Assembly (NCBI GenBank): GCA_903925955.1
Contig: CAIYHO010000117.1
Coordinates: 1 to 32,889 of the forward strand
Direction: 5' to 3'
DNA length: 32,889 bases
Origin: an uncultured Chloroflexota bacterium
GTDB taxonomy: Bacteria; Chloroflexota; Limnocylindria; Limnocylindrales; CSP1-4
The position numbers and the translations under genes were made by a program. Positions 778 to 5,618 of this stretch are shown here, in pieces (position 1 is the first letter of the stretch; the number at the start of each line of letters is the position of its first letter). Under the pieces are notes generated by a model. The model made no database searches, had not been told where the DNA came from, and worked only from the letters and a program-made list of their open reading frames with translations.

Positions 778-2040
778 ATGGCGTTTCTGCGGCGCATCTG
801 GAACCGGGAGCGGGATGACGCGCCCGCTGCCTGCACCGCGCTGGACATCGGCACCGAATACGCCAAGGCGCTGGTCTTTGAGATAGACCCGCAGGGGCAC
901 GGGTTTGTGCGTGGCGTTGGCCGCAAACGACAGGGTCTTGCGCACATGCAGTCGGGCACGGTGGCGGACATCGCCGCAGTTGTAGACAACTGCGCGGTCG
1001 CGCTGCAGGAAGCCGAGGAGATGGCGGGCTTTCGGCCCACGCAAGTGGTGATCGGCATCGCCGGCGAGCTTGTGAAGGGCTTCACGACAACCGTGGCTGT
1101 TGAGCGCAAACGGCCTGATCTGCCCGTCAACGAGGCGGAGCTCGCCAGCCTCATTGAGCGGTGTCAGCATGACGCACTGCGCGAGGCGGAGCAGGCGATC
1201 ACCTGGGAGACTGGTCTGCCCAAGGTGGACGTCCGTCTTGTGCACAGCGCGGTTGTCGGCGCGTCGATGGACGGCTACAGCCTGGCCAACCCCGTGGGCT
1301 TTCAGGGCCGACACGTCAAGATCAGCATCTTCAACGCGTTTGCGCCGCTTGTGCACCTTGGTGCTTTGCAGTCGGTGGCAAGCCGGCTGGACCTGCAGCT
1401 GCTTGAGGTGGTGGCGGAGCCCTACGCCGTGGCTCGGGTGATGGGGCTTGACGCCGTGCGGCAGGCTGGCGCCTTGTTCGTTGATGTCGGCGGTGGCACC
1501 ACAGATGTCGCGCTTGTGCGCCAGGGCGGCGTTGAGGGCACCCGCATGTTTGCGCTTGGCGGACGTGCCTTCACCAAGTCCATTTCAGACCGGCTGGACC
1601 TGCCGTTCCCGCGGGCCGAGGCGCTGAAGGTTGACTACGCGCGCGGCCTCAACGTTGACGACGCCGAGATGGTGGCCGGCGTTGTGGCTGACGATGTTGC
1701 CGTGTGGTCGGCCGGCATGGAGCTGGTGCTGGAGGAGCTGGCCGCCGGCGAGCTCCTGCCATCGCGGATCTATCTGTGCGGCGGCGGTTCGCGGCTGCCC
1801 GAGATCCCAGCGGCGCTGACCGGGGACCGCTTCTGGCGCGGGCTGCCGTTTGCGCGCCCGCCAGAGGTGGTCATCATGTCGCCCTCGCTGGCGGTGGCCC
1901 TGACAGACTCCACGGGGCTTCTGGTGGACCAGCAGGATGTGACACCCCTGGGTCTGGCGAACCAGGCGATTGAGCTGCATGTGGCCGAGGACCCGCTCGA
2001 CGCGGTCCTGCGCCGAGTGCTGCGCGCCATGAAGGTCTAG
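778..2040 (+). CDS. FtsA-like actin-family ATPase (FtsA/PilM type)
   Basis: 420-residue actin/Hsp70-fold ATPase. Phosphate-1 motif is LDIGTEYAK near residue 23, phosphate-2 is VDVGGGTTDVAL around residue 237, and the adenosine motif is LCGGGSRLPE around residue 332. Between them lies an FtsA-type 1C (SHS2) segment with a P-x-G-x-x-G pattern and VAEPYAVA. The stretch LGGRAFTKSISDRL followed by AEALK matches FtsA more than PilM. The C-terminus (DPLDAVLRRVLRAMKV) could form an amphipathic helix like the FtsA membrane anchor. FtsA tethers FtsZ to the membrane; PilM couples to the bitopic PilN. The neighbour 10 bp downstream is a bitopic membrane protein, so a PilM-like pairing is equally possible. 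No ftsZ or pil gene is in the window, so I leave the symbol empty. A purine-rich GGGGGAGA lies upstream of the ATG. Confidence 0.85.
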   Translation: MAFLRRIWNRERDDAPAACTALDIGTEYAKALVFEIDPQGHGFVRGVGRKRQGLAHMQSGTVADIAAVVDNCAVALQEAEEMAGFRPTQVVIGIAGELVKGFTTTVAVERKRPDLPVNEAELASLIERCQHDALREAEQAITWETGLPKVDVRLVHSAVVGASMDGYSLANPVGFQGRHVKISIFNAFAPLVHLGALQSVASRLDLQLLEVVAEPYAVARVMGLDAVRQAGALFVDVGGGTTDVALVRQGGVEGTRMFALGGRAFTKSISDRLDLPFPRAEALKVDYARGLNVDDAEMVAGVVADDVAVWSAGMELVLEELAAGELLPSRIYLCGGGSRLPEIPAALTGDRFWRGLPFARPPEVVIMSPSLAVALTDSTGLLVDQQDVTPLGLANQAIELHVAEDPLDAVLRRVLRAMKV

Positions 2041-2050
2041 GCTGGTCCCC

Positions 2051-3721
2051 ATGGCCCACCTTGCCTACCTTGAACCTGACGACGAGCTGACCACGGCCGC
2101 CAGCCGGATCCGCCTGACGCCCGGTGACCGGGTTGGGCTTGTGTTGCCCTTCAACTCGCGTGTCGCCACGTCGCGTATCAACTTCCGGCTCCTTGCGCGT
2201 GAGGTCAACGAGGCGGGCCGGATCCTCGATGTCATTGCGCCCGACGCTGCTGCCCGAGCGCTTGCGATCTCGGCCGGTCTGCGTGCCTTCGCCACGGTTG
2301 CGGAGTACGAGGCCGCCGTGGGGCAGGCTGGCATGCAGGCCGCGCCCAGGTGGACGGAGGACCTGGCGCCGGGTCTCAGCAGCTTGACCAATGTTCACGA
2401 GACCGTCGAGCAGTGGGGCCCGGAGCCGTGGCTGCCGCTCGAGCGCGATACGGACGCGCGGTCGCGGGAGGTTGCAGATGCCCGCCGCAGGCCGCCAACA
2501 GTGGTCCGCAGCGCAAAGCCCATGGGGTCGCCGGTTGTCCTGGTGCTGATCCTGGTGCTGGCCGTGCTGCTGGGGCTGGGCGGCGCCGCGGGCGTGATGC
2601 TGCTGCCAGCCGCCGAGATCACGGTCACCGCGAAGGCTGAGGACGTGCCGGCTCTCGCGCTCGCGGTTATTGCAGACCCCTCAGTGAAGGAGCCTGACGC
2701 GACGGGCCTGCGGATCCCCGCCCAGCTGGTGGAGTTGCCGGTGCAGGTTTCGGGCGACTACAAGGCAACCGGCAAGAAGGTCACCGAGACCAAGGCCACG
2801 GGCTCCGTGACCTTCACCACCATCAACACGCTCTCGGCGCAGTCTGTCCCCAAGGGCACCCGGCTCTCAACGGTGGATGGAACGGTCTTTGCCACCACAG
2901 CGACTGTGGTGGTGCCAATGGCAACGGTGCACTTCCCAACAATCTCGCTTGGGTCCGTGTCCGTGGGCGTGGTTGCCGTGAAGGCCGGGATTGGCGGGAA
3001 TGTGGCAGGCGGCGCCATCACGCAGGTTCCGTCCAGCCTGTCGGCGGTCAAGATCAAGGCCTCAAACCCGGCTGCGACCAGCGGCGGTACCCGCACAGAG
3101 ACCGTCCAGATTGCGCAGGCGGATGTTGATGCCGCGCTGAAGGACCTCAACGCGCGCCTGCAGACGGCCTTTGAGACTGCGGTTGCAGCGCCCAGCGGGC
3201 TGCCCGCCGGAGCAGTCAGCTACCCGGACACCGCCGTGCTTGGTGACGTCACCCCGGACACGGATCCGGCCACGCTAGCGGGCACGCCGGTGGAGACCTT
3301 TAGTCTCGCGCTTGCTGCTGCCGGGAGCATCCTCGCGGTTGACGCATCGCCCATCGCCGCCATCGGCGAGGCAGCCATTGCCCGCGCAGTACAAGCCGGC
3401 TATCGGCTGGTGCCCGGTTCTGTTGTGGTGAAGGTTGGCACGGGCGTGCCGGCTGACGGCGGTGTGACGTTTGAGGTCCAGGCCAGCGCGAAGCGCATCC
3501 GGATCCTTGACGCCGCAGCGCTCCGGACCCAGGTGCTTGGTCAGACCGAGGCGGCGGCGCGTGCGGCGCTGAGCGCGTACGGCAGCGTTGAGATCTCGTT
3601 CTGGCCGGGCTGGGTGTCCGCCGTGCCCTCCAACGCCGATCGCGTGACCGTGACTGTTGGCGACGGTGCGCCCGGCGCCAAACCCGGCTCCAGCCAGTCG
3701 CCGGTACCATCGAGCCCATGA
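2051..3721 (+). CDS. Bitopic membrane protein with baseplate J-like extracytoplasmic domain
   Basis: 556 residues in four parts. Residues 1-90 form a cytoplasmic alpha/beta domain (YLEPDDE, VGLVLPFNSR, ATSRINFRLL). A polar linker spans about 90-157. One transmembrane helix (PVVLVLILVLAVLLGLG) sits at about 161-187. An exported domain of about 370 residues follows. Within that domain, ATGSVTFTTINT, VPKGTRLST and GIGGNVAGGAITQV resemble the baseplate J (gp47) fold, which occurs in many non-phage chromosomal proteins of Chloroflexota and candidate-phylum bacteria. The tail is Pro/Ser-rich. No other phage genes are nearby, so phage origin is unlikely. The start lies 10 nt after the FtsA-like stop, without a clear Shine-Dalgarno; the last bases overlap ruvX (ATGA). 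Its function is unknown; partnership with the upstream ATPase is my inference. Confidence 0.8.
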   Translation: MAHLAYLEPDDELTTAASRIRLTPGDRVGLVLPFNSRVATSRINFRLLAREVNEAGRILDVIAPDAAARALAISAGLRAFATVAEYEAAVGQAGMQAAPRWTEDLAPGLSSLTNVHETVEQWGPEPWLPLERDTDARSREVADARRRPPTVVRSAKPMGSPVVLVLILVLAVLLGLGGAAGVMLLPAAEITVTAKAEDVPALALAVIADPSVKEPDATGLRIPAQLVELPVQVSGDYKATGKKVTETKATGSVTFTTINTLSAQSVPKGTRLSTVDGTVFATTATVVVPMATVHFPTISLGSVSVGVVAVKAGIGGNVAGGAITQVPSSLSAVKIKASNPAATSGGTRTETVQIAQADVDAALKDLNARLQTAFETAVAAPSGLPAGAVSYPDTAVLGDVTPDTDPATLAGTPVETFSLALAAAGSILAVDASPIAAIGEAAIARAVQAGYRLVPGSVVVKVGTGVPADGGVTFEVQASAKRIRILDAAALRTQVLGQTEAAARAALSAYGSVEISFWPGWVSAVPSNADRVTVTVGDGAPGAKPGSSQSPVPSSP

Positions 3722-4227
3722 CCCCCCGGATCCTTGGTATCGACCTCGGCTCGCGTCGCATTGGTCTTGCCGTCGCGGACGCCGGCATCGGCATCGCGCA
3801 GGCGTTTGCGACGATTGGCCGTGGCGCCGACATCAACGCGGATGGCGTAGCCCTGGCCCGCGTCTGCCGCGACCAGCGGATCACCGAGCTTGTGGTGGGT
3901 CTGCCCATCGAAGCGCGCGGCAATGAGGGCGAAATGGCGGCGGGAGCCCGCGCGTGGGCCGAGGCCATCAGCACCTTGCTTGGCATTCCTGTGGTGATGC
4001 GCGACGAGCGGCTGTCGTCCTTTGAGGCAGAGCAGCGGCTTGGCCGCATGCCGCGCGGGCGCAGTGGCGGGGCACCCTCAAAGGCGCAGCGCGACGCCTA
4101 TCGAGCGCGGGTTGATCGGGAGGCGGCGTCCGTCATCCTGCAGGACGAGCTTGACAGCCGTCGTGCCGCCGGGTCGCTGGTTGAGCGCGTGGCGATGCCG
4201 GCGCCCGTAGTTGAGGACGCCCGATGA
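3718..4227 (+). CDS. ruvX: RuvX/YqgF family pre-16S rRNA nuclease (putative Holliday junction resolvase)
   Basis: 169-residue RNase H-fold protein. The N-terminal LGIDLGSRRIGLAVAD carries the first acidic residue, LVVGLP follows in the middle, DERLSS supplies the next conserved acid, and VDREAASVILQDEL is the C-terminal signature. Known family roles are maturation of the 16S rRNA 5' end (E. coli YqgF) and suggested Holliday junction resolution. Residues 110-122 hold a Gly/Ser/Arg-rich segment, slightly longer than in many homologues. The ATG overlaps the previous stop by 4 nt and the stop overlaps mltG's ATG, so translation is probably coupled. The start has no Shine-Dalgarno but is preceded by TACCAT and 7 nt (see findings). 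Confidence 0.93.
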   Translation: MTPRILGIDLGSRRIGLAVADAGIGIAQAFATIGRGADINADGVALARVCRDQRITELVVGLPIEARGNEGEMAAGARAWAEAISTLLGIPVVMRDERLSSFEAEQRLGRMPRGRSGGAPSKAQRDAYRARVDREAASVILQDELDSRRAAGSLVERVAMPAPVVEDAR

Positions 4228-5618
4228 CGGGCCCGAGCAAGCGCAACGTGCGGGACCGCGGCGATCGGACATCCGGGACCCGTCCTACTGGTGTCGATCC
4301 CGCGGGAGCCTATCGCCGCTCCGGCCGATATGGTCGCGGACCGGGCGACCAGCGCCGGTTTGCGCGCTACGGCAAGCGCGGCGGCGGCCTCTTTGGGCTG
4401 CTGCGCTTCGGCATCTTCCTGGGCGTCCTTGCGGTGCTGGTCATCGGCGCCATGGCCACCGTGGCCCGGCCCATGGTGCGCGCCATCGTGGTCCCGTGGG
4501 CAAACGGCAACGCCAGCGCGCTGTCGATCCCGTTTGTCGCGGATCTCGTTCGCGAGGACCTGGGCAGCACGCTGACCGATCCCGCCAGCAGTGACGCCAC
4601 AGTGGTGACCTTCACCGTTGCCACCGGTGACACGCCAACCACCATCGCCCCGCGGCTCCTCAAAGCCGGCGTTATCGCCGATCAGCGGGCCTTCCTGTTC
4701 CAGGCCCGGATGGACGGTCTGGCACCCAAGCTCTCAACTGGTGACTTTGCGCTGGCCAAGAACCTCACGCCTGCCCAAGTTGTGGCTGGCCTGGTGGCCA
4801 ACCGGGTTGTGGCGCAGGTCATGAACATCACGTTCCGTGAGGGCCTGCGGCTGGAGCAGATGGCCACCAAGCTGCTCACAGTTGAGGGTGACGGCATTGA
4901 CCCGGCGCAATTCCTGGCCCTCGCGCAGGATCCGCCCAACTCGCTCCTTGCAGACTACGCGTGGCTCCTGGATCCAAAGATCCACCCCAAGGGCACGTCG
5001 CTGGAGGGCTTCCTCTACCCGGACACGTATCAGGTGCGGATTGATGTCGCGGCGCCCACGGGCGCTGACGGGCTGATCCGCAAGATGCTGGACAACTTCT
5101 ACGTCAAGGTGGGGCCCGATCGCATGGCGGCGGCGTCCAAGCTTGGGCTTTCGTTCTACCAGTTGCTCACGCTCGCCTCAATCGTTGAGCAAGAGGCCCA
5201 ACTCGACAAGGAGCGGGCGCTGATTGCCGGCGTCTACACAAACCGCCTCACCCCCACCGTGTGGGCCTTGGGGAAGCTGCAGTCTGACCCGACAGTCTTC
5301 TACACACACGACACCTTGGAGCTTGCGAAGATCAAGTTCCCGCAGTGGATCAAGTACGTCTTCTGGGCTGAGTTCTCAACCGCAATGCCAGACCCGCTGC
5401 CGCCTGCGGTCATCGGCTACGACACGTATGTCAGCAAGGGGCTGCCGCCCACGCCCATTTGCGCGCCGGCGCTCGCCTCCATCGACGCTGCCATCAGCCC
5501 CAACACGAAGACCGGCTACCTGTACTTCTTCGCCAAGATGGACGGGTCTGGAACCACCGCCTTTGCAAAGACGCTCGCGGAACACAACGCGAATATCAAG
5601 AAGTACGGCAAGCACTGA
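4224..5618 (+). CDS. mltG: Endolytic transglycosylase MltG (YceG-like)
   Basis: 464 residues. A basic, disordered N-terminal cytoplasmic region (1-50) is followed by a transmembrane helix (about 53-75, FGIFLGVLAVLVIGAM) and a periplasm/exterior-facing body. A LysM-like stretch is seen at FTVATGDTPTTIAPRLLKAGVI-type sequence. The catalytic region has ASIVEQEA, whose first Glu matches the E. coli MltG active-site glutamate, then KLQSDPTVFYT and YVSKGLPPTPIC, all family signatures. MltG cleaves nascent peptidoglycan strands near the membrane and is thought to set glycan length. A short extra segment of about 25 residues (ELAKIKFPQWIKYVFW region) separates the DPT motif from the SKGLPP motif. The ATG overlaps the ruvX stop; ruvX-mltG adjacency is common in bacteria. 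Confidence 0.93.
   Translation: MTGPSKRNVRDRGDRTSGTRPTGVDPAGAYRRSGRYGRGPGDQRRFARYGKRGGGLFGLLRFGIFLGVLAVLVIGAMATVARPMVRAIVVPWANGNASALSIPFVADLVREDLGSTLTDPASSDATVVTFTVATGDTPTTIAPRLLKAGVIADQRAFLFQARMDGLAPKLSTGDFALAKNLTPAQVVAGLVANRVVAQVMNITFREGLRLEQMATKLLTVEGDGIDPAQFLALAQDPPNSLLADYAWLLDPKIHPKGTSLEGFLYPDTYQVRIDVAAPTGADGLIRKMLDNFYVKVGPDRMAAASKLGLSFYQLLTLASIVEQEAQLDKERALIAGVYTNRLTPTVWALGKLQSDPTVFYTHDTLELAKIKFPQWIKYVFWAEFSTAMPDPLPPAVIGYDTYVSKGLPPTPICAPALASIDAAISPNTKTGYLYFFAKMDGSGTTAFAKTLAEHNANIKKYGKH

Follow-up and report, generated by a model that had tools for sequence, protein, structure and literature searches.

An FtsA paralog and a bitopic baseplate-J-type protein encoded together between alaS and ruvX: a possible membrane module in Chloroflexota

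Why should the gene of an actin-like ATPase and the gene of a membrane protein with a baseplate-J-type outer domain lie side by side between alaS and ruvX? We addressed this question in a stretch of 32,889 nucleotides from an uncultured Chloroflexota bacterium (contig CAIYHO010000117.1 of assembly GCA_903925955.1), called the window here. A first-pass annotation, made from the letters of the window, had suggested that the pair may be a cytoplasm-to-surface coupling module, a divisome variant or part of a surface appendage. It had placed two open reading frames 10 bp apart between alaS and ruvX, and this arrangement is confirmed, with the frames at 778–2040 and 2051–3721. The downstream product is called BPJ below. 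The features of the locus are as follows.

1–747, + strand: 3' part of alaS (tRNA_SAD and DHHA1; Pfam 1e-14 and 4.7e-9), the conserved upstream neighbour
778–2040, + strand: open reading frame of an FtsA-family actin-like ATPase, an FtsA paralog of 420 aa (ftsA model 9e-29, below the cut-off; own clade)
838–876, + strand: phosphate-1 motif of the ATPase, ALDIGTEYAKALV
1027–1272, + strand: approximate IC (SHS2-type) subdomain of the ATPase, with boundaries placed by colinearity with FtsA; in FtsA and PilM this region takes up the tails of FtsN and PilN
1474–1518, + strand: phosphate-2 motif of the ATPase, LFVDVGGGTTDVALV
1768–1806, + strand: adenosine motif of the ATPase, IYLCGGGSRLPEI
1996–2037, + strand: conserved C-terminal amphipathic segment of the ATPase, LDAVLRRVLRAMKV, a possible membrane anchor judged by moment, charge and motif
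2051–3721, + strand: BPJ (556 aa), bitopic, with an outer domain of baseplate-J type
2051–2326, + strand: cytoplasmic N-terminal alpha/beta domain, BPJ residues 1–92 (predicted alternating strand-helix pattern, pLDDT ~70–80)
2528–2599, + strand: transmembrane helix, N-in, BPJ residues 160–183 (hydropathy and flanking charge)
2789–3109, + strand: baseplate-J-type domain, BPJ residues 247–353 (Pfam, PHROG and profile match)
3248–3658, + strand: C-terminal outer alpha/beta region of BPJ, unclassified (sequence conservation in the alignment)
3718–4227, + strand: ruvX, a conserved downstream neighbour (Pfam 9.6e-30)
4224–5618, + strand: mltG/YceG, endolytic transglycosylase family, a conserved downstream neighbour (Pfam 1e-63)

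The spacing is ~31 bp between alaS and the ATPase gene and 10 bp between the ATPase gene and BPJ, and the BPJ/ruvX and ruvX/mltG junctions overlap by 4 bp each. The adjacency noticed in the window holds up across Chloroflexota: we found the order alaS-ATPase-BPJ-ruvX-mltG in ~55 loci from many families, and a same-strand BPJ gene comes next in 57 of the 58 alaS-linked ATPase loci. In the remaining locus the contig ends within BPJ, whose start is still present, and the pairing is therefore not a matter of chance. Where there is room on the contig, alaS lies upstream of the ATPase gene in nearly all loci, ruvX adjoins BPJ in 50 of 52 and mltG is present in 48 of 52; a listed gap of -1453 in one locus (L058) reflects a split BPJ reading frame. 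Promoter and terminator scans of the locus stayed at chance level, and PADLOC, which bears on a defence role, returned no match.

The upstream product was first described as an FtsA/PilM-type ATPase with intact nucleotide motifs, a description that our searches bear out with the topology of FtsA. The NCBIfam model ftsA (TIGR01174) matched it at 9e-29 with 100.7 bits, below the cut-off of 175.85, and was nonetheless the best-matching family model, since the PilM, MreB and EutJ models scored lower; Pfam FtsA matched at 1.9e-13. Residues 20–297 align with FtsA structures, and a colinear profile match to FtsA covers residues 18–319; the colinear stretch spans the position of FtsA's IC subdomain, and SHS2_FTSA matched one relative at 0.0019, under the cut-off of that model. 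Intact phosphate-1, phosphate-2 and adenosine motifs are seen in the window ATPase and in most of its orthologs. The last 14 residues have a hydrophobic moment of 0.71 and a net charge of +3 (shuffle p 0.042), and their motif, which is without the aromatic residues found in FtsA, is kept among orthologs with modest amphipathicity (p 0.02–0.15 in relatives). An AlphaFold2 model of the ATPase from a three-row alignment, made up of the window and two related loci, reached a mean pLDDT of 33.8.

For BPJ, the searches and predictions agree with the first description of a cytoplasmic alpha/beta domain, one membrane helix and a baseplate-J-like outer domain. Residues 247–353 match Pfam Baseplate_J (6.4e-10), a PHROG baseplate wedge family (5.2e-13) and, by profile, solved gp47/J proteins (2.4e-7). 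Exactly one transmembrane segment was predicted in 46 of 53 BPJ orthologs, and the window BPJ has weak extra hydropathy stretches. Around the membrane segment, the mean count of lysine plus arginine falls from 4.0 before to 0.7 after, which argues for an N-in orientation. A variable linker joins the N-domain to the helix. AlphaFold2, again on a three-row alignment, gave a mean pLDDT of 38.5, so that the model is usable for residues 1–92 only, and its confidence in the C-terminal outer region is too low for a fold name. The N-domain has no relative in Pfam or the PDB, and Foldseek with its model returned no match at E<=0.001; kinship with STAS domains was considered and set aside (HHalign probability 3.5%, with STAS entries recurring in Foldseek only at E ~0.07–0.4). 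BPJ shares with Baseplate J/gp47 of contractile tails and injection systems the ~105 outer residues matched by profile, but differs from them in its one membrane helix, its cytoplasmic domain and its phylum-wide chromosomal locus. The idea that BPJ is part of an injection machine was rejected because its own genome holds neither a sheath protein nor a second Baseplate_J protein.

Both known partnerships that the pair recalls can be set against this evidence. FtsN and PilN, both bitopic, dock with their cytoplasmic ends in the IA-IC cleft of the actin-like FtsA and PilM, respectively, and FtsN induces double filaments of FtsA (PMC7613929). The window pair resembles FtsA-FtsN in combining an actin-like protein that has an IC domain and a modestly amphipathic C-terminus with a bitopic partner. 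Its genome, however, carries another, canonical ftsA beside ftsZ (C185; ftsZ identified from position and sequence), the ATPase is optional, and in BPJ the N-domain is folded and the outer region is of baseplate-J type. The gene of the ATPase is not linked to ftsZ, which adjoins the other ftsA; the same genome also has mreB beside mreC (C184; mreC again identified from position and sequence) and a further actin-like gene (C120). In a quick tree, in which some rows are long-branched and of unsure placement, the alaS-linked ATPases and the Chloroflexota FtsA proteins form two separate, well supported clades, both phylum-wide, which indicates that the ATPase is an old FtsA paralog and not a recent copy. 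The separate ftsA-ftsZ pair, the separate clades and the sub-cut-off score led us to reject the identification of the ATPase with FtsA. A second division FtsA, acting together with FtsZ and activated by BPJ in the manner of FtsN, would still account for the best family match, for the amphipathic C-terminus and for the neighbouring mltG, given that MltG acts on peptidoglycan. We regard it as distinctly unlikely, since it has against it not only the canonical pair and the separate clade but also the many lineages from which the ATPase is missing and a neighbourhood where division genes are not adjacent. The reading as a divisome variant lacks support, on account of the canonical pair elsewhere in the genome and the separate paralog clade.

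A place for the pair as PilM-PilN in a type IV pilus or a related secretion machine appears highly improbable. An IC domain and a bitopic binding partner are features of PilM too (PMC7613929), the pilM model is matched weakly by 19 of 21 relatives, and PilM-PilN and GspL, of type IV pili and type II secretion, resemble the proposed pairing in that a bitopic protein is coupled to an actin-like one lying under the membrane. The scores nevertheless fall far short of PilM level (17 bits against a cut-off of 27 for PilM_2, and 30 against 133 for the pilM model), and a search of 301 genomes for PilM at E<=1e-25 found none, with three controls detected. PilT is absent from the pair's own genome and from 68 of the 85 genomes with the ATPase, which leaves 17 of 85 with this pilus motor. 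Neither pil nor division genes lie nearby, in line with the first-pass annotation, which had recognised neither PilN nor divisome genes there; the fixed neighbours of the ATPase gene are alaS, BPJ, ruvX and mltG. The outer domain is a different one, and the N-terminus of BPJ is a folded domain rather than a PilN-type tail. We therefore rejected PilM as the identity of the ATPase on the sub-cut-off scores, the lack of a strong PilM in the sample and the lack of PilT in its own genome, and the surface appendage reading lacks support in view of the PilM and PilT results together with the missing sheath.

To follow the two genes through the phylum, we used 301 Chloroflexota genomes, evenly drawn, and counted close ATPases (E ~4e-29 or better) by hand from the listing. 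Each of the 85 genomes that carry a close ATPase also has BPJ, so the ATPase stands without BPJ in none of them, and BPJ is present in 231 of the 301 overall. BPJ alone is far commoner than the ATPase, which makes BPJ the core and the ATPase an optional accessory; the first-pass annotation had overlooked which part is constant and which is optional. In many other families BPJ precedes ruvX and mltG without the ATPase, and the BPJ N-domain is retained in most lineages that lack it, so that this domain is not merely a dock for the ATPase. The N-domain scored as somewhat better conserved where the ATPase is present (29 vs 24% for an equally diverged outer part), but we discarded this difference as small and as biased, since the model had been built on ATPase-bearing lineages. 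In the streamlined family f2 (G067, G147, G271 and others; same order), genomes of ~1 Mb are without both genes, and the sister family f1 has both; the module is accordingly not essential in f2. A plasmid search found nothing.

Some lineages have kept the ATPase gene in a decayed form. In families f4 and f5, which belong to the same class as the window genome, a shortened ATPase relative between alaS and BPJ has lost all three nucleotide motifs and retained the loop at the end of the IC region, and family f49 offers a second case in which the motifs are lost and the gene position is kept. These pseudo-ATPase loci are L100, L101 and L102 (f4/f5) and L115 (f49). According to a tree of the BPJ outer domain, the f4/f5 and f49 decays are separate events, and the ATPase switches between present and absent about six times. 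The loss of nucleotide motifs in place implies that ATP turnover is not needed everywhere, and this points to a scaffold role for the ATPase.

Extra BPJ copies in family f21 have a Ser/Thr kinase (Pkinase 1e-41) instead of the alpha/beta domain. Several genomes of the genus g58 encode such proteins, as does G300: two genera in a single family. Fusions of kinase, membrane segment and BPJ outer domain were located at L119 5743–8433 (G050), at L193 and L194, and in G068 and G300. About 5 kb from the fusion in G050 lies a second long BPJ copy (L119 13284–15947), with an outer region too divergent for a Pfam match. With a kinase in place of the alpha/beta domain, the BPJ outer domain resembles a receptor domain with exchangeable insides. 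PASTA-type receptor Ser/Thr kinases are comparable to the f21 protein in joining a Ser/Thr kinase and a membrane segment to an outer domain; their outer domain differs, and the window BPJ has no kinase. Separately, a Ser/Thr kinase is fused to an FtsA-like protein in the single genome G279 (L048 8006–10360, - strand; 9e-48 and 1e-10), away from alaS and BPJ.

These fusions would suit a BPJ that is an envelope receptor or sensor in the manner of PASTA kinases, with the alpha/beta domain, the FtsA paralog and the Ser/Thr kinase as exchangeable cytoplasmic outputs. We think this unlikely, as the kinase-BPJ fusions are confined to one family and the kinase-FtsA-like fusion to one genome, and the ligand is putative. 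Shared ancestry of an operon by chance, with no joint function, would be in keeping with the housekeeping nature of alaS and ruvX and with the existence of BPJ without the ATPase; it is very unlikely in view of the 85 genomes in which the ATPase never lacks BPJ and of the decayed forms that remain between alaS and BPJ. The original interpretation stands in part: a dedicated pairing of an actin-like and a bitopic protein is well supported by gene order, by the dependence of the ATPase on BPJ and by its ancestry apart from FtsA, the divisome and appendage options are not, and a cytoplasm-to-surface coupling module is the only one of the three options to survive.

We tentatively favour a membrane module in which the FtsA paralog serves as cytoplasmic scaffold for BPJ, itself an envelope receptor or organiser, and our findings suggest that an as yet undescribed module connects the interior of the cell with its wall. 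BPJ would span the membrane once, with its baseplate-J-type region acting outside and its alpha/beta domain inside. Beneath the membrane, the FtsA paralog would be kept in place by BPJ and by the amphipathic segment at its own C-terminus, and could cluster or polymerise and so organise BPJ or relay the state of BPJ, in a way comparable to FtsA-FtsN and PilM-PilN. By the same logic as in FtsN and PilN, the ligand of the ATPase may be the BPJ N-domain or linker; in distance residuals, taken without a significance test, most comparisons show the ATPase tracking the N-domain more closely than the outer part, a weak signal. The module probably has a connection to MltG and the wall, and because the link to MltG is conserved, the outer part of BPJ might sense or organise peptidoglycan or a surface layer. 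In distance residuals, likewise without a significance test, the outer part tracks MltG (0.63); the adjacency of mltG lends soft support to a wall role because alaS and ruvX are housekeeping genes. This role, which we infer from the MltG neighbourhood and the receptor-like fusions, is the least certain step. We further speculate, with considerable doubt, that BPJ could be the prototype of an undescribed Chloroflexota envelope receptor family, whose baseplate-J-type outer domain would be read by interchangeable parts in the cytoplasm, either a dedicated FtsA-family scaffold (a pseudo-ATPase in some lineages) or a Ser/Thr kinase.

We found no paper that joins these proteins in a literature search whose coverage left most subscription journals outside. 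If the two proteins do cooperate, the FtsA/PilM fold would have, after division and pili, a third setting in which it serves beneath a bitopic protein, and a tail-baseplate-type domain would have a non-phage role in the envelope. The module would then be traceable across the phylum, where natural knock-outs, pseudo-ATPases and domain swaps make its logic testable.
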